Assembly (NCBI GenBank): GCA_024278555.1
Contig: JAJRSX010000031.1
Coordinates: 1 to 8,084 of the forward strand
Source: a bacterium
GTDB lineage: Bacteria; CG2-30-53-67; CG2-30-70-394
Length of the DNA: 8,084 nucleotides
Direction of reading: 5' to 3'
Positions 1 through 7,880 of the stretch are shown piece after piece (position 1 is the stretch's first letter; each line of letters begins with the position of its first letter). The notes beneath the pieces are model-generated. The model saw only the letters and a program-made list of their open reading frames with translations, had not been told where the DNA came from and did no database searches. The position numbers were made by a program, and so were the translations under genes.

Positions 1-1262
1 CACGCCTCCAGGTGTTTGTGGACGTTCTCCACCAGCACCACCGCCGCATCCACCATGACCCCGATGGCGATCGCCAGGCCGCCGAGAGACATGATGTCGG
101 CGTTGATGTGCAGCACATCCATGATCAGCAGGGACGCCAGCAGGCCGAGGGGGAGGACGATCGCCGCCACCAGGGTGGAGCGGACGTGCATCAGGAAGAG
201 GATGATGATCAGCGCCACCACCACGATCTCCTCCGTGAGCTTGTCCTTCAGGTTCTCCACCGCCCGCTCAATGAGGGAGGAGCGGTCATAGGTGGGGACG
301 ATCTCCACCCCGTCGGGCAGCCCCGTCTTGAGCTCCTCCAGCCGCTGCTTCACCCCGTCGATGACCGCCAGGGCATTCTCCCCGAAGCGCATGATGACCA
401 CCCCGCCGGCCACCTCGCCCTCGCCGTCGAGCTCGGCGAGACCCCGCCTGAGCTCCGGCCCGAGGTGGATGTGGGCCACCTGCGACAGGAGGATTGGGGT
501 GCCGTTGCCGTCGACCCCGAGGGGGATCTCCTCCAGGTCGTGGATCGACTTGATATAGCCCAGGCCGCGCACCATGAACTCGGTCTCCGCCTGCTCGACC
601 AGGCGGCCGCCGACGTCGTTGTTGGAGCGCTGGATAGCGTGTTTCACCTTGGAGAGGGGGATGCCGAAGGCGAGCAATTTGTCCGGGTCGACCTCCACCT
701 GATACTGCTTCACGTAGCCGCCGATGGAGGCGACCTCGGAGACCCCGGGGACGGTCTGCAGCTCGTACTTGAGGAACCAGTCCTGGATCGAGCGCAGCTC
801 CGAGAGGTCGTGGGTGCCGCTCTTGTCGACCAGGGCGTACTCGTAGACCCAGCCGACACCGGTGGCGTCCGGCCCGAGCGACGGGTTGACCCCGGCGGGC
901 AGGCGGCCGGAGACGAAGTTCAGGTACTCCAGGACCCGCGAGCGTGCCCAGTAGAGGTCGGTACCGTCGTCGAAGATGATGTAGACGAAGGAGAAGCCGA
1001 AGAAGGAGTAGCCCCGCACCACCTTGGCAAACGGCACCGACAGCATCGCGGTGGTCAGGGGGTAGGTGATCTGGTCCTCCACCACGTCCGGCGCCTGGCC
1101 CGGGTACTCGGTGTAGATAATCACCTGGACGTCGGAGAGGTCCGGGATCGCGTCCAGGGCGATATTGCGCGCGGCGTAGACACCGCCAAAGAGCAGCGCC
1201 ACCGAGGCGATGAGGACCAGGGCCCGGTTGTTTACGGAGTATTCGATAATTTTGGAGATCAT
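1..1262 (-). CDS. cusA: CusA-type Cu(I)/Ag(I) efflux RND pump, N-terminal part (cut by window edge)
   Basis: Inner-membrane proton-driven pump of a tripartite heavy-metal efflux (HME-RND) system. It moves metal from periplasm or cytosol into the adaptor and outer-membrane channel. Residues 1-420 of roughly 1,040 are present; the minus-strand frame stays open to base 1. Seen: start [15 protein letters not shown]1 about residues 14-31, the porter-domain stretches [70 protein letters not shown] and [10 protein letters not shown], and TM2-TM4 at about 345-358, 362-382 and 388-412. TM4 reads [14 protein letters not shown], placing A399, D405 and E412 exactly where E. coli CusA has them. The divalent-cation CzcA class has Asp at the first site. 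Family assignment is from remembered motifs; the methionine triad (M573/M623/M672 in E. coli) lies outside the window. The ATG at 1262 matches the E. coli start, but no Shine-Dalgarno is visible before it. It lies 42 bp past the four-helix-bundle gene. Confidence 0.95.
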
Positions 1263-1269
1263 GAGGGCG

Positions 1270-1303
1270 GTAGAACGTAGAAAGTAGGAAGTAGAAAGGG
1301 GGG
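1270..1303. repeat. Left arm: four GTAGAAA-like heptamers plus G6
   Basis: On the plus strand the units read GTAGAAC, GTAGAAA, GTAGGAA, GTAGAAA, then six G (1298-1303). Positions 1277-1302 are the inverted complement of 1636-1661 with one mismatch (1280/1658). In the efflux transcript this arm is a pyrimidine-rich stretch directly upstream of cusA, where a purine-rich ribosome-binding site would be expected. Confidence 0.9.
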
Positions 1304-1304
1304 A

Positions 1305-1631
1305 TTAGCGCCTGGCGGTTTCGTCGGCTTGGGCAAGGAGAACCCTATTGTCCGAGATGTATCCGAGGTCTTTCGCGAGAATAAAGTAGTACCGGGTTTC
1401 TTCGAGTGACGCCTCGGCGATGTTGTAGAAGCGGCACTTTTCGGGCTTGGAGCGGCGTTTGAACCCTTCCGCAATGTTTGCTGGGATAGAAACGGCTGCG
1501 CGTCGTAGCTGACTGGTCAGCCCGAAGTGCTCATCGTTTTGGAACTGTTTACTGATTCGATAGACATCCAGTACCAGCGCATGGGCCTTCTGCCAGGCAA
1601 CGAGTTGGTCGAATCGCTCAACTTTCATCAT
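1305..1631 (-). CDS. Four-helix-bundle protein of the 23S rRNA intervening-sequence (IVP/S23, Avd-like) family
   Basis: A 108-residue protein with the family hallmarks: start VERFDQLVAWQKAHALVLDVYRI is helix 1, followed by FGLTSQLRRAAVSIPANIAEG (about 36-56), the strongest motif of the family (TIGR02436/PF05635), then RFYNIAEASLEETRYYFILAKDLGYI for helix 3. Relatives are encoded in 23S rRNA intervening sequences and as the Avd accessory protein of diversity-generating retroelements; they form pentameric, basic, nucleic-acid-binding bundles. The biochemical role of stand-alone copies is not established. At 108 residues it is a little shorter than the usual 115-125, ending at ADETARR before helix 4 would normally finish, close to the repeat arm. 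Two consecutive ATGs (1631, 1628) follow a G5-TGGG stretch; the second has the better spacing. No reverse transcriptase or variable repeat is in the window, so a DGR role is not supported here. Confidence 0.92.
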   Translation of the reverse strand: MMKVERFDQLVAWQKAHALVLDVYRISKQFQNDEHFGLTSQLRRAAVSIPANIAEGFKRRSKPEKCRFYNIAEASLEETRYYFILAKDLGYISDNRVLLAQADETARR

Positions 1632-1635
1632 CCCA

Positions 1636-1661
1636 CCCCCTTTCTACTTCCTACTTTTTAC
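1636..1661. repeat. Right arm: three GTAGAAA-like heptamers plus G5 (inverted copy)
   Basis: Read on the minus strand: GTAAAAA, GTAGGAA, GTAGAAA, then five G. It overlaps the last codons and the TAG stop of cusB (1653-1651), and its G-run lies just upstream of the four-helix-bundle start. It pairs with 1277-1302 to give a potential long stem in the operon mRNA, closing a loop of about 330 nt. That is long enough in principle for RNase III recognition. Confidence 0.9.
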
Positions 1662-3606
1662 TGCCGCTGTCTCCAGACAGCGGCTCGCCGCAGCGCAGCA
1701 TGGAGGCGCCGAAGTAGGGGTTCGCAAGCTCACCCTTCTGGAGCCAGTTGGCGTGCGACATGGGGCAGTGGAAGGCGTTCAGGCCGAGGTCGCTGGCGAT
1801 GGATTTTTCCGGGCCGCGGGCGAGCTTCAGCATGAGCTCGGAGACCGGGCCGAAGCCGCCGCGCGCCACCTGGAGGTCCTCGGAGGTGAGGTGGTCGAGG
1901 TCGGTGGCCAGCCGCTTCAGCTCGGCGAGGGTGGCGCCGCTTCCCGGTTGCTCCGCGAGGCGGTCCAGCGCCCCCCGGAGCTGCTCCACAGCAGCGGTGG
2001 GCGCGGTGTGGTCGCCGGACAGGGCGGCCTGGATCTTCAGGTAGGCGGTGAAGGCGTCGTGGGCCGCCGCGGGTGCGGGCGGTGAGGGGGCCATCTTCAT
2101 CCCTTTCATTCCTTCCATGCCCTTCATGTTTTTCATCGAGCCCGCGTCCGCCGGCGCGCCGGCAGCCCTCTTCTTGCGTACCGCCAGGAGCTTGTTGACC
2201 GCCTCCTTGAGCTGCGACTCGGAGTCGAGGAGGAACTGCGCCGAGCTGACCACGGTCTCCCCTTCGATCAGCCCCGCGAGGACCTGGTAGCCGTCGTCGC
2301 CCTCGGGTCCGAGGGTGAGGGTGCGCGGCTCGAAGCGGTTGTCGTCGAGCTCCACGAAGGCGAGGTTGCGGCGGCCCGAGTGGATCACCGCCTCCTTCGG
2401 AACCACCACCACGGCGGCCGCCACCCGCGGGGTCATGATGACGTTCGAGTACATCCCCGGCTTCAGGGTGAGGTCGGGGTTCTTGAAGATCAGGCGCACC
2501 TGAACGACCCGGGTCTTCGGGTTGAGGGTCGGGTAGATGTAGTCGAGGCGGCCGTGGAAGACTTGGCCTGGGTGGTAGGTGAGGGTCATGTCGGCGTGGG
2601 TCCCCGGTTGCACCCAGGGGAGCTCCTGCGAGTAGACGTCCGCCAGGACCCAGACGGTGGAGAGGTCGGCGAGCTTCAGCAGGGGCTGGCCCGGCTTGGC
2701 GTAGGCCCCCTCGACGACGTGGCGCATGAGGACGACGCCGTCGAAGGGGGAGTAGAGGGTGAGGGTGCGCTCCACCTTGCCGGTGCGCGCCAGGCGGTCG
2801 ATCTGCGCCGGGTTGATGTCCCACAGCGCCAGCCGCTCGCGCGTGGAGGCCAGCAGCCGCTTCGCGCCGGAGACCACCTCGGGGAAGGGGGAGCGCTTTG
2901 CCTTGCGCAGGTTGTCCAGGGCGAGGAGGTACTCGCGCTGGGTGGTCACCAGGTCCGGGGCGTAGAGGGTGAGGAGCGGGTCGCCCTTCTTCACCTGCTG
3001 GCCGGTCTCGGCGACGAAGAGGTGCTCGATCCAGCCGCCTACCTTGGTGTTGATCTCGGTGAGGCGGGTCTCGTCCTCGGTGACGTGGCCGATGGTGCGC
3101 AGGGAGCGGGTGAGGTCGCGGCGTTCGATGGTGGCGGTGCGCACCCCCATGTTCTGGACCACCGCGGGGTCGATGCGGATGGCGTTCGGGTGGGCGTCAT
3201 TTTGGGCCGCCTCATCCTCGTCCTCGTAGACCGGCACCAGGTCCATCCCCATGGGCGACTTGCCGGGCTTATCCCGGATGTAGGTGGGGTTCATCGGGGC
3301 GACCCAATACTTGATCTTGCGCTCGCCCTTCGCCTTGGCCTTGGTCTCGCCCCCGGCCGTCGTCGTCCCGGAGGTCCCAGCCTTCAACGGCATCAGCTTC
3401 ATGCCGCAGATGGGGCAGTCGCCAGGGTGGTCCTGGATGACGTTCGGGTGCATACCGCAGGTGTAGAGCTGCTCCCCTCCGGTCTCCTCGCCGTGCTCGT
3501 GCTGCGTGGTCGCGGTGGGGGCGGGGGTTACGAAGCGCGTGCCCACCCAGACGCCGAGGCCGGTAAAGAGGAGGGCGATAGCGATGATGCCGAAGATCCG
3601 TTTCAT
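1651..3606 (-). CDS. cusB: CusB-type periplasmic adaptor (membrane fusion protein) with two HMBDs, Met-rich linker and DUF3347-like C-terminus
   Basis: Adaptor that couples the CusA pump to the outer-membrane channel and probably hands over metal. 651 residues, against about 400 for E. coli CusB. N-terminal membrane anchor at about 4-24. First heavy-metal-binding domain at about 48-74 has the Cys/Met/His pattern YTCGMHP..DCPICGMKLMPL. A second at about 100-128 (YWVAPMNPTYIRDKPGKS, then PMGMDLVPVYE) lacks the cysteines. The adaptor core spans about 140-470: lipoyl/barrel KVGGWIEHLFV and VKKGDPLLTLYAPDL, an alpha-hairpin at about 220-275, then SPFDGVVLMRHVVEGAYAKPG and NPKTRVVQVR. A methionine-rich linker with MKNMKGMEGMKGMKM lies at 491-505. 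The C-terminal domain (about 515-641) resembles DUF3347, ending FHCPMSHANWLQKG..NPYFGASMLRCGE. An AAGGA element lies 10 nt before the ATG. The stop codon falls within the downstream inverted repeat. Metal class is inferred together with cusA. Confidence 0.93.
   Translation of the reverse strand: MKRIFGIIAIALLFTGLGVWVGTRFVTPAPTATTQHEHGEETGGEQLYTCGMHPNVIQDHPGDCPICGMKLMPLKAGTSGTTTAGGETKAKAKGERKIKYWVAPMNPTYIRDKPGKSPMGMDLVPVYEDEDEAAQNDAHPNAIRIDPAVVQNMGVRTATIERRDLTRSLRTIGHVTEDETRLTEINTKVGGWIEHLFVAETGQQVKKGDPLLTLYAPDLVTTQREYLLALDNLRKAKRSPFPEVVSGAKRLLASTRERLALWDINPAQIDRLARTGKVERTLTLYSPFDGVVLMRHVVEGAYAKPGQPLLKLADLSTVWVLADVYSQELPWVQPGTHADMTLTYHPGQVFHGRLDYIYPTLNPKTRVVQVRLIFKNPDLTLKPGMYSNVIMTPRVAAAVVVVPKEAVIHSGRRNLAFVELDDNRFEPRTLTLGPEGDDGYQVLAGLIEGETVVSSAQFLLDSESQLKEAVNKLLAVRKKRAAGAPADAGSMKNMKGMEGMKGMKMAPSPPAPAAAHDAFTAYLKIQAALSGDHTAPTAAVEQLRGALDRLAEQPGSGATLAELKRLATDLDHLTSEDLQVARGGFGPVSELMLKLARGPEKSIASDLGLNAFHCPMSHANWLQKGELANPYFGASMLRCGEPLSGDSGSKK
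1664..1683 (-). other. Perfect 8-bp hairpin at the 3' end of cusB
   Basis: CCGCTGTC at 1664-1671 and GACAGCGG at 1676-1683 are exact inverted complements with a 4-nt loop. The hairpin encodes the PLSGDSG tail of CusB and ends two bases before the right repeat arm. No T-run follows on either strand, so it is not a standard intrinsic terminator. It may be the target against which the cassette inserted, or a processing or stability hairpin in the polycistronic mRNA. Confidence 0.6.
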
Positions 3607-3648: not shown

Positions 3649-3735
3649 ACCGTGAACGACACGAAGTGCATGAAGGGGGGAGGGTGCTGAGGGTTACCCC
3701 TGCTTTTCCTTGCGGGTATTCGTGTCCTTGGTGGT
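3649..3735. repeat. Imperfect inverted pair of GACACGAA-type repeats at the cusC-cusB junction
   Basis: Plus-strand 3649-3666 (ACCGTGAACGACACGAAG) and the reverse complement of 3718-3735 (ACCACCAAGGACACGAAT) match at 13 of 18 positions and share GACACGAA. The right copy is read as the last residues of CusC (TTKDTNTRKEK); the left copy is in the intergenic gap and is followed by ATGAAG and G6 (3675-3680). This belongs to a short purine-rich dispersed repeat type with a period of about 9, also seen at 5402-5430 and 8066-8084. The arrangement (repeat pair overlapping the end of an operon gene) parallels the cusB-cusA junction. Confidence 0.55.
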
Positions 3736-5001
3736 CTTGCCGCCGGCAGGTCCGCCGTGGCCGCCGACAGCCTCCGGTAGCCGCCCCACCGCCTGTCGCA
3801 GCTCGGCCTGCTGCTGGAAGAGGTCGGCGCGGGCGCGGAAGGCGGCGAGCCTCAGGTCGAGCCAGTCGCGCTCCGCGTCCAGGAGGTCGAGGAAGCCGGC
3901 GCTGCCGGTGCGGTAGGCGTCCATGGTGGCGCGCAGGGCCTGCTCCGCCTGGGGCACGAGGCCGGTGGTGAAGAGGGCGACCTGGTCGCGGGTGGTGGTC
4001 ATGCGGAAGCGGAGGTCGTCGATCTCCGAGAGGGCCCGGTCGAGCTCATCCTTGTAGGCGGCCTGCGCCTCGGCGAGGCGCGCCTCCTGCTCCGTCACCC
4101 CCGCCTTCAGCCGCGTGCGCCAGATGGGGAGGTTGACGGAGAGGGTCGCCCAGTAGCTGTCGGTGCCGTTGTCGTCCACCGGCAGGGGACCGGGGGAGAC
4201 GAGGGTGTAGTCGAGGCGGGCGGTGAGGTCCGGGTAGTACCGCTTGTGGGCCAGCGCGAGGCGGCTGCGGATCGCCTCGATCTTGTGGGCGAGGGCGGCC
4301 AGCCGCGGCCGCTCCCTTTCCATGGCCGTCCGCAGGGCCTCGGTTGTAGGGATCACCGGGGTCCCGGTGGGGAGGTGAGAGGCGACGATAGGGGTGGACG
4401 GGTCGCGGCCGAGCAGGGCGTTGATGCGCGCCACCAGGGTGGTGCGCCGGGCGCGCAGGGTGAGCAGCTGGTCGGTGTCGCGTGACAGGGCGACCTGGGC
4501 GCGCAGGACGTCGCGCTGCTGGCCGTCGCCGGCGCGGTAGTGGGCCAGCGCCGCCTCGACGATGTCCGAGACCAGGGCGTGGTCCGCCTCGGTGATGCGG
4601 ATCGACTCTTCGATATAGGCGAGGTCGTAGTAGCGATCCTGAACCTCGGTCACCACCGCCAACTCCACCTGCCGCAGCCCCTGGGCCACGGCAGCGGCGG
4701 TACGCTCTGCCGCCTCGCCGCGCAGGCCGCGCTTGCCCCAGAAGGGGAACTTCTGGGAGAGGAAGAGGCGCGCCTCCTGCGGTCCGACCCGCGTCTCCAC
4801 CTCCGACAGGTACCAGGCGAGACCGGCCTGCGGGTCGTCGAAGCTCGACGCCTGGGCGGGCATCGCGCCGGCGGCGATCGCCGCCTGGCGTGCCGAGGCG
4901 ATCCGCGGGTTGTCCCGAAGGGCGGTGGCGACGAGGTCGTCGAGGGGCGCGGCGGCGGCCGCGGTGGCGAGCAGGAGGGTGAAGAGGGCGATCGTGCGCA
5001 T
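3694..5001 (-). CDS. cusC: TolC/CusC-family outer-membrane efflux channel
   Basis: Outer-membrane factor forming the exit duct of the Cus tripartite pump; first gene of the operon. 435 residues from the ATG at 5001, chosen because it begins a clean Sec signal peptide (MRTIALFTLLLATAAAAA, then PLDD) and has GGAG 7 nt upstream. A TTG 11 codons earlier overlaps the promoter and is unlikely. There is no lipobox cysteine, unlike E. coli CusC, so it should be a signal-peptidase-I product. Two OEP repeats are visible: DDLVATALRDNPRIASARQ opens the first, with QKFPFWGKRGLRGEAA, and YYDLAYIEESIRI in a long helix. The second includes SYWATLSVNLPIWRTRLKAGV, LAEAQAAYKDELDRALSEIDD and YRTGSAGFLDLLDAERDWLDL. 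The final 13-16 residues (KTTKDTNTRKEKQG) are low-complexity and are encoded by a dispersed DNA repeat, so they are probably a recent extension. The gap to cusB is 87 bp. Confidence 0.92.
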   Translation of the reverse strand: MRTIALFTLLLATAAAAAPLDDLVATALRDNPRIASARQAAIAAGAMPAQASSFDDPQAGLAWYLSEVETRVGPQEARLFLSQKFPFWGKRGLRGEAAERTAAAVAQGLRQVELAVVTEVQDRYYDLAYIEESIRITEADHALVSDIVEAALAHYRAGDGQQRDVLRAQVALSRDTDQLLTLRARRTTLVARINALLGRDPSTPIVASHLPTGTPVIPTTEALRTAMERERPRLAALAHKIEAIRSRLALAHKRYYPDLTARLDYTLVSPGPLPVDDNGTDSYWATLSVNLPIWRTRLKAGVTEQEARLAEAQAAYKDELDRALSEIDDLRFRMTTTRDQVALFTTGLVPQAEQALRATMDAYRTGSAGFLDLLDAERDWLDLRLAAFRARADLFQQQAELRQAVGRLPEAVGGHGGPAGGKTTKDTNTRKEKQG

Positions 5002-5029
5002 GGGCGGGCTCCGTGTTTGTAGGGAGTAG

Positions 5030-5045
5030 AGCAAACATCGTGCCA
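5030..5045 (-). promoter_or_regulatory. Sigma-54 (RpoN) -24/-12 promoter of the cus operon
   Basis: Read on the minus strand the site is TGGCACGATGTTTGCT, which fits the RpoN consensus TGGCACG-N4-TTGCW at every defined position, with GG and GC separated by the required spacing. The predicted transcription start is about 5019-5020, giving an 18-nt leader with GGAG before the cusC ATG. RpoN dependence implies ATP-driven activation by an NtrC-family protein (two-component ZraR/HydG-like regulators control metal genes this way); no regulator gene is inside the window. Confidence 0.82.
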
Positions 5046-5858: not shown

Positions 5859-6920
5859 ATGCGTTGGACGAGCAACAAGCGATTCCGCCTCACCCGCTAC
5901 AGCGACTGCGCCGGTTGAGCCTCCAAGGTCAGCCCGGCGGCGCTGGGTGAGATCTTGCCCCCCTTTCACGAGGCGGTGGGCGGTGACGTGATCGTCGGGC
6001 TCGACCATCCCGACGATGCCGGCGTGGTGCGCCTTTCCGACCAGCTCGCCCTCATCCAGACGGTCGACTTCTTCACCCCCATCGTCGACGACCCCTACGC
6101 CTACGGCCAGATCGCCGCGGCGAACGCCCTCTCCGACGTCTACGCCATGGGCGGCACGCCGATCAGCGCGGTGAATCTCCTCTGTCTGCCGGTGGGCCGG
6201 ATCGACCCGGAGGCGGTGGCGGGGATCCTCTCCGGCGGGCGTGACAAGGCGGCCGAGGCGGGCTGCCCGGTGATTGGCGGCCAGTCGGTGGAGGATCGGG
6301 AGCTGAAGTACGGCATGGCGGTCACCGGTCGCGTCCACCCGGAGCGGGTCCTCACCAAGGGGGGGGCGCGGCCCGGCGACGTGCTGGTGCTCACCAAGCC
6401 CCTCGGGGTCGGCCTGCTCACCTCCGGCTTCAAGGCGGGGCGCGGCAATAAGGCCCTGGTGGCGCGGGCGGTCGAGACCATGGCGACCCTGTCGGCGATC
6501 CCCGCCCGCCTCGCCCACGCCTTCCAGGCCCACGCCTGTACCGACATCACCGGCTTCGGCCTCCTCGGCCACGCCTCCGAGATGGTCCGCGGCAGCTCGG
6601 TCGGCTTCCGCATCGAGGCGCAGCAGGTGCCGCGCTTCGAAGAGGCCCTCGCCCGTCCCTATCGCAAGCTGCGCACCCGCGCCGACACCACCAACCGCGA
6701 CTACACCCGCGACGTGGCCACGGTGGACACGGCCGTAGACGAGCAGGTCGAGGCGCTCCTCTACGACCCGCAGACCTCGGGCGGGTTGCTCGTCGCCCTC
6801 CCCGAGCGGCGCGCCACCGGCTACCTCCAGGCGATCGCCGGCGAGGGCTACTCGCTGCCCTGCGCGGTGATCGGCACGGTGGAGACGGCCCTCGCCGGCC
6901 GGATTGTGGTGGAGGGCTAG
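5859..6920 (+). CDS. selD: Selenide, water dikinase (selenophosphate synthetase), selenoprotein with in-frame UGA (Sec20)
   Basis: Makes selenophosphate from selenide and ATP, the donor for tRNA(Sec) and 2-selenouridine. 353 residues counting the UGA as selenocysteine; E. coli SelD has 347. The start is the ATG at 5859: an in-frame TAG at 5847-5849 blocks earlier starts. The N-terminus FRLTRYSDCAG-U-ASKVSPAAL aligns with the E. coli catalytic segment, placing TGA (5916-5918) at the Cys17 position and K23 at the catalytic Lys20 position. Downstream: ATP/metal residues in DDAGVV (52-53), TVDFFTPIVDDPY (D70), AAANALSDVYAMGG (N89, D93), TKPLGVGLLTSG, TDITGFGLLGH and DPQTSGGLL. The usual GGHS/T motif reads GGQS (Q142). 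Annotators that stop at UGA would start the gene too late, at TTG 5955. It stands alone here, with no selA or selB nearby; Sec decoding must be encoded elsewhere. Confidence 0.95.
5916..5951 (+). promoter_or_regulatory. Candidate bacterial SECIS element directly after the selD UGA
   Basis: After UGA, CUC (5921-5923) can pair with GAG (5949-5951) and CAGC (5930-5933) with GCUG (5942-5945), closing an 8-nt loop CCGGCGGC. A U (5929) at the base of the upper stem and GG in the loop (5936-5937, bases 21-22 counting U of UGA as 1) resemble the bulged U and apical GG recognised by SelB in E. coli fdhF. The lower part contains an asymmetric internal loop, so the fold is plausible but not proven. Confidence 0.6.
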
Positions 6921-6966: not shown

Positions 6967-7380
6967 TCAGGTCGGGCCAGGCGGCCACGGGGTGAAGCCG
7001 GCCAATGCGAAGTGGCGATCGAAGGTGAAAACCTGGGGGATCTTGTTGCGGGCCATCAGGATGAACGAGATACAGTCGGTGAAGCTCACCTGCTGGTCGG
7101 CGTACTTTTCAAAGAGCTCTACTGCCCGCACCTCGTCCTCATGGGTGGGGCGCAAGATGGCGAGTGTTTGGGAGGCGTAGGTGAGGCGTGCCCGCTCGGC
7201 GGCGAAGGCGTGGCTAACCCTACGGCCGAGGAGGGTAAATGCCTCATCGAGGACGAAGTTGCTGGTGAAGCAACGCTGGCGCCCGGTGCGCAGGCGCTCC
7301 CAACCCTGGAGCGCGGCCTCGTGGTCCGGGTCCCGGGCGATATGCCTCGCCAAAAACGGACCGGTGTCGACGAAGATCAC
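6967..7380 (-). CDS. vapC: VapC-type PIN-domain ribonuclease toxin
   Basis: 137 residues, typical for VapC, a Mg-dependent endoribonuclease that cuts specific tRNA or rRNA sites when released from its antitoxin. The PIN acidic quartet is visible: D5 (MIFVDTGPF), E46 (NFVLDEAF), D102 (VSFTDCISF) and D121 (VFTFDRHF), with the late hydrophobic block LAGF. The start is GTG at 7380, inside the stop of the upstream antitoxin gene (4-nt GTGA overlap), indicating translational coupling. It is convergent with selD, with a 46-bp gap and no clear terminator between them. Its target RNA cannot be read from sequence. Confidence 0.9.
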   Translation of the reverse strand: MIFVDTGPFLARHIARDPDHEAALQGWERLRTGRQRCFTSNFVLDEAFTLLGRRVSHAFAAERARLTYASQTLAILRPTHEDEVRAVELFEKYADQQVSFTDCISFILMARNKIPQVFTFDRHFALAGFTPWPPGPT

Positions 7381-7616
7381 CCCTTCTCACCGTAGAGGTA
7401 GTCGTCGTGACGGGCGGCGAGATCGGCCGGCGCCTCCCCCGTGTACACGGCGTGGTCGGCAAGGAGCGGGTCCTCCTTGCGGGTAGGCGGTGCCTCCGAG
7501 AGCACCTCCGTCAGGGCGATGCGGATGAGCTCCCCGAAGGAAAGCCCCATCTCCTGCGCCCGTTTCTGGGCAAGGCTCTTCAGGTCCGGCGGCAACATCA
7601 CCGTGGTTCTCTTCAT
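7377..7616 (-). CDS. vapB: Ribbon-helix-helix antitoxin of the VapBC pair
   Basis: 79 residues. The N-terminal half, MKRTTVMLPPDLKSLAQKRA, followed by QEMGLSFGELIRIALTEVL, has the beta strand (TTVMLP) and two helices of a ribbon-helix-helix DNA-binding domain. The acidic C-terminal half (KEDPLLADHAVYTGEAPADLAARHDDYLYGEKG) would wrap the toxin. RHH antitoxins of this kind repress their own operon and neutralise the PIN toxin. It starts at ATG 7616 with only a weak purine stretch upstream and is first in the two-gene operon. The upstream ATATATGGCGGCGCTATT region (7626-7645) is only a weak palindrome as an operator candidate. Confidence 0.85.
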   Translation of the reverse strand: MKRTTVMLPPDLKSLAQKRAQEMGLSFGELIRIALTEVLSEAPPTRKEDPLLADHAVYTGEAPADLAARHDDYLYGEKG

Positions 7617-7803: not shown

Positions 7804-7880
7804 GCGCGAGTAGCTCAGCTGGATAGAGTACAGGCCTCCGAAGCCTGGGGTCGTGGGTTCGAATCCCGCCTCGCGCACCA
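7804..7880 (+). tRNA. tRNA-Arg (anticodon CCG), CCA encoded
   Basis: 77-nt cloverleaf. The acceptor stem GCGCGAG (7804-7810) pairs with CTCGCGC, followed by discriminator A and encoded CCA (7878-7880). The D-arm starts GCTCAGCTGGATAGAG. The anticodon stem CAGGC/GCCTG closes the loop CTCCGAA, so the anticodon is CCG and it reads CGG arginine codons. The T-arm is GTGGG-TTCGAAT-CCCGC with one G-U pair. All canonical features are present. Confidence 0.97.

Follow-up and report, generated by a model that had tools for sequence, protein, structure and literature searches.

Ribosomal RNA (rRNA) is known to harbour intervening sequences (IVSs) that contain an S23p open reading frame (ORF), have complementary ends and are cut by RNase III; in the IVS of Coxiella, GACAGAT heptamers precede the ORF (PMC4990558), and the structure of the Coxiella ribosome revealed neither an IVS remnant nor S23p (PMC13392368). 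Heptamer repeats, many of them in inverted pairs, have been described in Xanthomonas and Nostoc with no tie to genes of the IVP family (PMC4692102), and IVP genes have been reported in cas loci (PMC3936711). Here, we examine an 8,084-nucleotide stretch of bacterial DNA (the window, i.e., positions 1 to 8,084 of contig JAJRSX010000031.1 in assembly GCA_024278555.1), in which an IVP gene flanked by inverted heptamer arrays separates cusB from cusA in a copper/silver efflux operon. The IVP family (PF05635) spans many bacterial phyla and archaea and includes two crystal structures; to our knowledge, it has no known function. The parts of the arrangement, rRNA IVSs and heptamer repeats, are thus familiar—the combined stand-alone unit was not found described, since no account of IVP genes as heptamer-flanked mobile units emerged from the literature searched, a scope that excludes most subscription literature.

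A first-pass annotation of the window had proposed that an IVP gene interrupts the cus operon between inverted arms of 26 bp, 25 of them matching, composed of GTAGAAA-type heptamers and a G-run. Profile searches and gene positions bear out the first part of this proposal: the 108-residue protein belongs to PF05635 (E=2e-36; 124.7 bits, cut-off 33.8) and to TIGR02436 (E=2e-33; 114.8 bits, cut-off 24), and its gene sits between cusB and cusA (Table 1). A repeat search confirmed the second, recovering a single inverted pair between positions 1000 and 2000, with 26-nt arms that are 96% complementary and separated by 333 nt. The G-run of both arms lies on the gene-proximal side, and a fourth heptamer extends the left tract to position 1270 (heptamer pattern at 1270-1298). 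One correction is needed, as the last codons of cusB and its stop codon (1651-1653) fall inside the arm at 1636-1661. With a self-identity of 0.74 at lag 7, the window arms consist of tandem 7-nt units and qualify as repeats of the short tandemly repeated repetitive (STRR) kind. We regard this heptamer repetition as the defining feature of the unit; it had escaped the first-pass annotation, as had the preference for sense orientation in operons and the existence of gene-less pairs, both described below. Shuffles and matched controls ruled out that the arms arose by chance or from low-complexity sequence, because their score of 47 exceeds the maximum of 25 among 100 shuffled sequences and the heptamer pattern matches 56 times in the 3.06-Mb genome of origin, against 0 matches for the reversed pattern.

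In a fold prediction of the mRNA, the arms pair in a single long stem enclosing the ORF (-140.2 kcal/mol, z -3.2), so that the stem-and-loop structure claimed earlier is reproduced as a prediction. The further claim of an architecture identical to that of rRNA IVSs holds for the complementary ends around an S23p ORF but not for the location: the tRNA gene was the sole RNA gene found in a scan of the window, which detected no rRNA, and every IVP locus examined was free of rRNA motifs. The unit and the IVSs of Leptospira and Coxiella encode proteins of one family, have complementary ends that enclose the ORF by pairing into a stem, measure about 430 nt and are sporadically distributed. Unlike the IVSs, the unit lies between protein genes of an operon, its two arms are formed by heptamer arrays that differ by subfamily, and its stem is a predicted mRNA structure—at which RNase III might process the efflux transcript.

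Inverted arms proved to be a general attribute of IVP genes. We assembled two slightly overlapping surveys (loci L055 and L164, for example, are the same contig): the first comprised 33 PF05635 loci from a 60-genome sample spanning many lineages, and the second 80 named loci nearer the window protein, retrieved with a closer IVP subset because the full set was too divergent, and drawn from Chloroflexi, Planctomycetes, Verrucomicrobia, Bacteroidetes, Cyanobacteria, Nitrospirae, Acidobacteria, WOR-3, an ANME-1 archaeon and others. At an inverted-repeat score of at least 28, arms were present at 24 of the 33 genes in the first survey (1/990 control positions in the same loci) and at 42 of the 80 in the second (6/2400). 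The arms in the first survey displayed 65% self-identity at lags 7 and 14, compared with about 25-37% at other lags; lag-7 identity was 0.65-0.69 over both surveys, and period 7 was the best in 38 of the 42 arm-bearing loci of the second. Arm tracts had median lengths of 33 and 34.5 nt, with a mode of 4-5 heptamers. The heptamer reads roughly GNAGNNA in the subfamily near the window protein and GGTTAGC, GGGTAAA or TGGTTCC among divergent IVPs, and heptamer similarity correlates with IVP protein similarity (Mantel r 0.57; 0/2000 permutations). These arrays resemble the Xanthomonas, Nostoc and Calothrix repeats (GGGAATC, GGGGATT, STRR) in their tandem 7-nt units, preference for about four units, inverted pairing and intergenic position (PMC4692102). 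In contrast to those repeats, for which no general association with mobile elements was found (PMC4692102), the arrays of the unit border a gene whose presence or absence they follow. Two observations from the surveyed genomes stand apart. Five contigs of genome G015 (C2, C3, C7, C12 and C13) hold 19 PF05635 matches, mostly as divergent opposite-strand pairs a few hundred bases apart, an arrangement unlike that of other genomes. In addition, genomes G005 and G007, neither of which has an IVP gene, yield 97 and 78 matches to the reversed control pattern, which suggests that both carry another abundant heptamer family.

The genome of origin (211 contigs, about 100% complete) contains exactly two PF05635 genes. 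The second separates carA from carB, which usually adjoin each other, and its inverted arms are built from another 7-nt unit (GGGATGG/GTGAGGG type); the cus unit is accordingly not the only arm-gene-arm unit of its genome. A search for arm copies with and without the gene further revealed GTAGAAA tracts dispersed across the genome, including a copy on contig C18 that matches the left window arm at 26/26 positions, and gene-less inverted heptamer pairs of about 160-185 nt at no fewer than six sites (at least 6). One of these pairs, on contig C198, is missing from the same-genus genome G001, where the flanks align at 83-87%. A core conserved among all the gene-less pairs was sought and not found, as only those on C153 and C198 clearly have one in common.

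We compared the cusB-cusA and carA-carB junctions in related genomes. The genomes searched included a single other member of the genus, G001, and this has an orthologous unit between cusB and cusA (CusA 82% identical, IVP 64%), with GTAGACA-type heptamers in both arms as opposed to the GTAGAAA type of the window; the two arms have thus changed together while still matching each other. In genomes G002, G003 and G005, which belong to another family (CusA 72-74%), cusB adjoins cusA and the IVP gene is missing. The unit is therefore common only to the same-genus genome rather than being conserved across distant relatives, and from this family-level comparison we infer an insertion at the cus site. 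At carA-carB, the gene is absent from G001 (CarB 90%), which has a solo heptamer tract instead, and from the other compared genomes. Because both junctions occur without the gene in other genomes, we ruled out that the unit is an old member of these operons. Separately, an 8-nt repeat array of TTGAACCC type was observed between carA and carB at loci L103 (genome G006) and L104 (genome G004), most clearly in L103.

Cyanobacterial plasmids provided filled and empty versions of the same site. On T. variabilis plasmid C, an IVP unit lies upstream of a virB10-like gene, and four plasmids of 97-98% identity retain the intact empty site GTTAAAAAGTAATTAAC; its filled counterpart, GTTAAAAA-GTAAT-unit-GTAAT-TAAC, differs from it by 428 bp and shows a clean 5-bp duplication. 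Scytonema carries the same insertion with two heptamers fewer, and Nostoc (C052) a decayed copy of it. In a four-gene Nostoc plasmid operon, three plasmids carry a unit between genes 2 and 3 that others lack, and in one sister plasmid genes 3 and 4 are separated by a member of another IVP subfamily, which has another heptamer. Insertions of gene-less heptamer pairs lie near these operon units, and at locus L200 (NZ_CP026682, Nostoc N6 plasmid pNPM1) an IVP gene has been broken by the insertion of such a pair, which has a hairpin core. Moreover, a unit separates cas10 from cmr3 in PCC 7003 (filled) and not in PCC 7002 (empty), and further filled/empty pairs were identified in Aulosira, Calothrix and N. 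edaphicum. Finally, G006 contains at least 6 IVP derivatives that are nearly identical, carry internal deletions and differ in their flanks, showing multiplication of a defective form. Presence and absence at orthologous sites, a feature of miniature inverted-repeat transposable elements (MITEs), is thus clean for the cyanobacterial plasmids and of family level at the window locus. Because of the empty sites and the multicopy defective derivatives, these sequence comparisons indicate that the unit is mobile and inserts whole with its arms, often at stop/start junctions, as seen between the sister plasmids. The spread of a gene with complementary ends outside rRNA, proposed on first inspection of the window, is strongly supported as a general phenomenon by the two surveys, the second unit and the empty sites.

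The junctions also bear on the idea that slippage creates heptamer microsatellites and homologous recombination then carries the gene between them. The many dispersed arrays of the same heptamer in the genome of origin, the arrays without IVP in other genomes and the variation in length between copies would fit such a process; however, no heptamer arrays occur at the junctions of the empty sites examined, so both arms arrive with the gene, and a clean insertion into a heptamer-free site has already been seen. We therefore consider this route very improbable. A more serious contender holds that the unit is a passive passenger, whose arms are MITE-like terminal repeats moved by an unrelated transposase and whose protein has another role, in the host or in addiction. 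The existence and polymorphism of gene-less arm pairs, the 5-bp duplication and the four Y1 transposase genes in the genome of origin speak for it, but heptamer sequence follows IVP subfamily, no transposase-type end sequence is common to the surveyed loci, and the three Y1 genes examined all lack flanking heptamers—a result that also speaks against ends of the repetitive extragenic palindrome (REP) type mobilized by REP-associated tyrosine transposases (RAYTs). This explanation accordingly strikes us as unlikely, if worth retaining. The unit resembles MITEs and REP/RAYT systems in being short, bounded by inverted repeats, dispersed and in some copies gene-less; it differs from them in having no fixed terminal sequence, no transposase partner that could be found and an internal gene with a non-transposase fold.

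Orientation and selection were informative about what the protein may do. Among 66 loci with both neighbours called, 54 units are in sense to both neighbours, 3 antisense to both and 9 mixed (54/57 co-directional contexts). A palindromic stem forms in either orientation, and the sense bias therefore points beyond stem formation, either to the ORF having to be transcribed along with the operon of the host or to a mechanism of insertion that is strand-specific. The ratio of nonsynonymous to synonymous substitution rates (dN/dS) between cyanobacterial units, about 0.09-0.15, shows that the IVP protein is maintained under purifying selection. Both features would also be expected of a module serving the host, in which stem and protein govern how the operon mRNA is processed or how stable it is—for instance, with RNase III uncoupling cusA from cusB. 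Such a role is in keeping with the predicted mRNA stem, with the retention of the unit, despite divergence, in both genomes of the genus, and with the in vitro cleavage of the Coxiella rRNA IVS by RNase III (PMC4990558). Patchy presence among near-identical plasmids, insertion into unrelated operons (cus, car, cmr and conjugation genes) and decayed or interrupted copies argue against it, and we give it a minor share of the probability.

The structural evidence links the protein to a pentameric fold. An AlphaFold2 model of the window protein is a four-helix bundle (pLDDT 95), and Foldseek matched it to 2GSC (TM 0.87); 2GSC and 2RLD, both matched by fold, have five chains each. A weaker match was to Avd in the ribonucleoprotein of a diversity-generating retroelement (DGR; 8UB7, TM 0.74, E 0.55), along with weak bAvd/Avd profile matches (29 bits with the Avd model, cut-off 80), and homology between PF05635 and Avd has been noted earlier (PMC10053308). 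This similarity, together with the sense bias in operons, raises the prospect of retro-mobility, whereby IVP, like Avd, would bring a reverse transcriptase to the RNA of its own unit, to be followed by insertion of the cDNA. The genome of origin encodes no PF00078 reverse transcriptase, despite being about 100% complete, and a DGR-like route is for this reason not supported here; we deem it improbable. DGR membership itself was ruled out by the same absence and by the Avd score far below the cut-off.

We favour, as a probable explanation, that the feature is a copy of a minimal mobile unit whose IVP pentamer binds the unit's own arms and promotes its upkeep and movement together with an enzyme acting in trans. 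The unit is laid out as a heptamer array, a short leader with the start site, the IVP/S23 gene and an inverted heptamer array. Having no identifiable promoter and lying in sense between operon genes, it would most likely be expressed from the host transcript, where the arms are predicted to pair over about 26-35 bp into a double-stranded RNA stem whose loop holds the ORF. The pentamer may contact roughly one heptamer per subunit, a ratio proposed because arms have 4-5 units, and arm binding would promote maintenance and movement of both the unit and the gene-less arm pairs. No recombinase is encoded in the unit, and the mobility enzyme would presumably be supplied in trans. Several observations weigh against this explanation. 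Simple co-inheritance could account for the correlation of heptamer with protein, and about a quarter to half of IVP genes lack arms at the threshold used. Genome G054 (5.0 Mb, one contig) has 188 GNAGNNA-array matches, and 2 in the control, with no PF05635 gene, which rules out a strict one-to-one tie of heptamer arrays to IVP genes. One plasmid unit is antisense between nrdB and nrdA. Finally, a uniform target duplication was not found: GTAAT was clean once, TTCTA was ambiguous, and elsewhere 8-13 bp of the junction were replaced.

Table 1. Features of the window discussed in the text.
Feature	Positions	Strand	Remarks
Outer-membrane factor gene	5034..3694	-	Part of the copper/silver efflux operon in the window
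cusB, upstream host gene of the interrupted operon	1651..3606	-	Profile matches HlyD_D23, HMBD
IVP/S23 four-helix-bundle gene, 108 aa	1305..1631	-	PF05635, TIGR02436
cusA 5' part, downstream host gene, runs off the window	3..1262	-	Profile matches; adjoins cusB directly in G002, G003, G005
Distal arm (3' arm of the mRNA)	1277..1302	+	Inverted repeat; GTAGAAA/GTAGGAA/GTAGAAA heptamers and GGGGG
Proximal arm (5' arm of the mRNA)	1636..1661	-	25/26 complementary to 1277-1302
selD-like gene	5859..6920	+	AIRS/AIRS_C
PIN-domain toxin-like gene and small upstream ORF	6967..7616	-	Likely VapBC-type pair
tRNA-Arg(CCG)	7804..7880	+	

Beyond the efflux operon, the frame of the selD-like gene extends upstream through one in-frame TGA at the active-site Cys/Sec position of SelD (LTRYSDCAGUASKVSP), and the gene probably encodes a selenocysteine-containing selenophosphate synthetase.

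In a broader and more tentative proposal, which we see as possible and somewhat doubtful, such units would form a widespread class of minimal mobile elements whose sole gene encodes a pentameric four-helix-bundle protein; each subunit would read one heptamer of subfamily-specific arrays, and the protein would move the unit and gene-less pairs into operon junctions without any known recombinase being encoded, the rRNA IVSs being the special case that landed in rRNA. Should PF05635 genes indeed belong to self-contained mobile units that end in heptamers, the family would gain a testable role, and an origin could be proposed for the IVSs of rRNA as well as for some of the heptamer repeats dispersed in bacterial genomes. 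The IVP genes in cus, car and CRISPR cmr operons would then be insertions rather than functional members of these operons.
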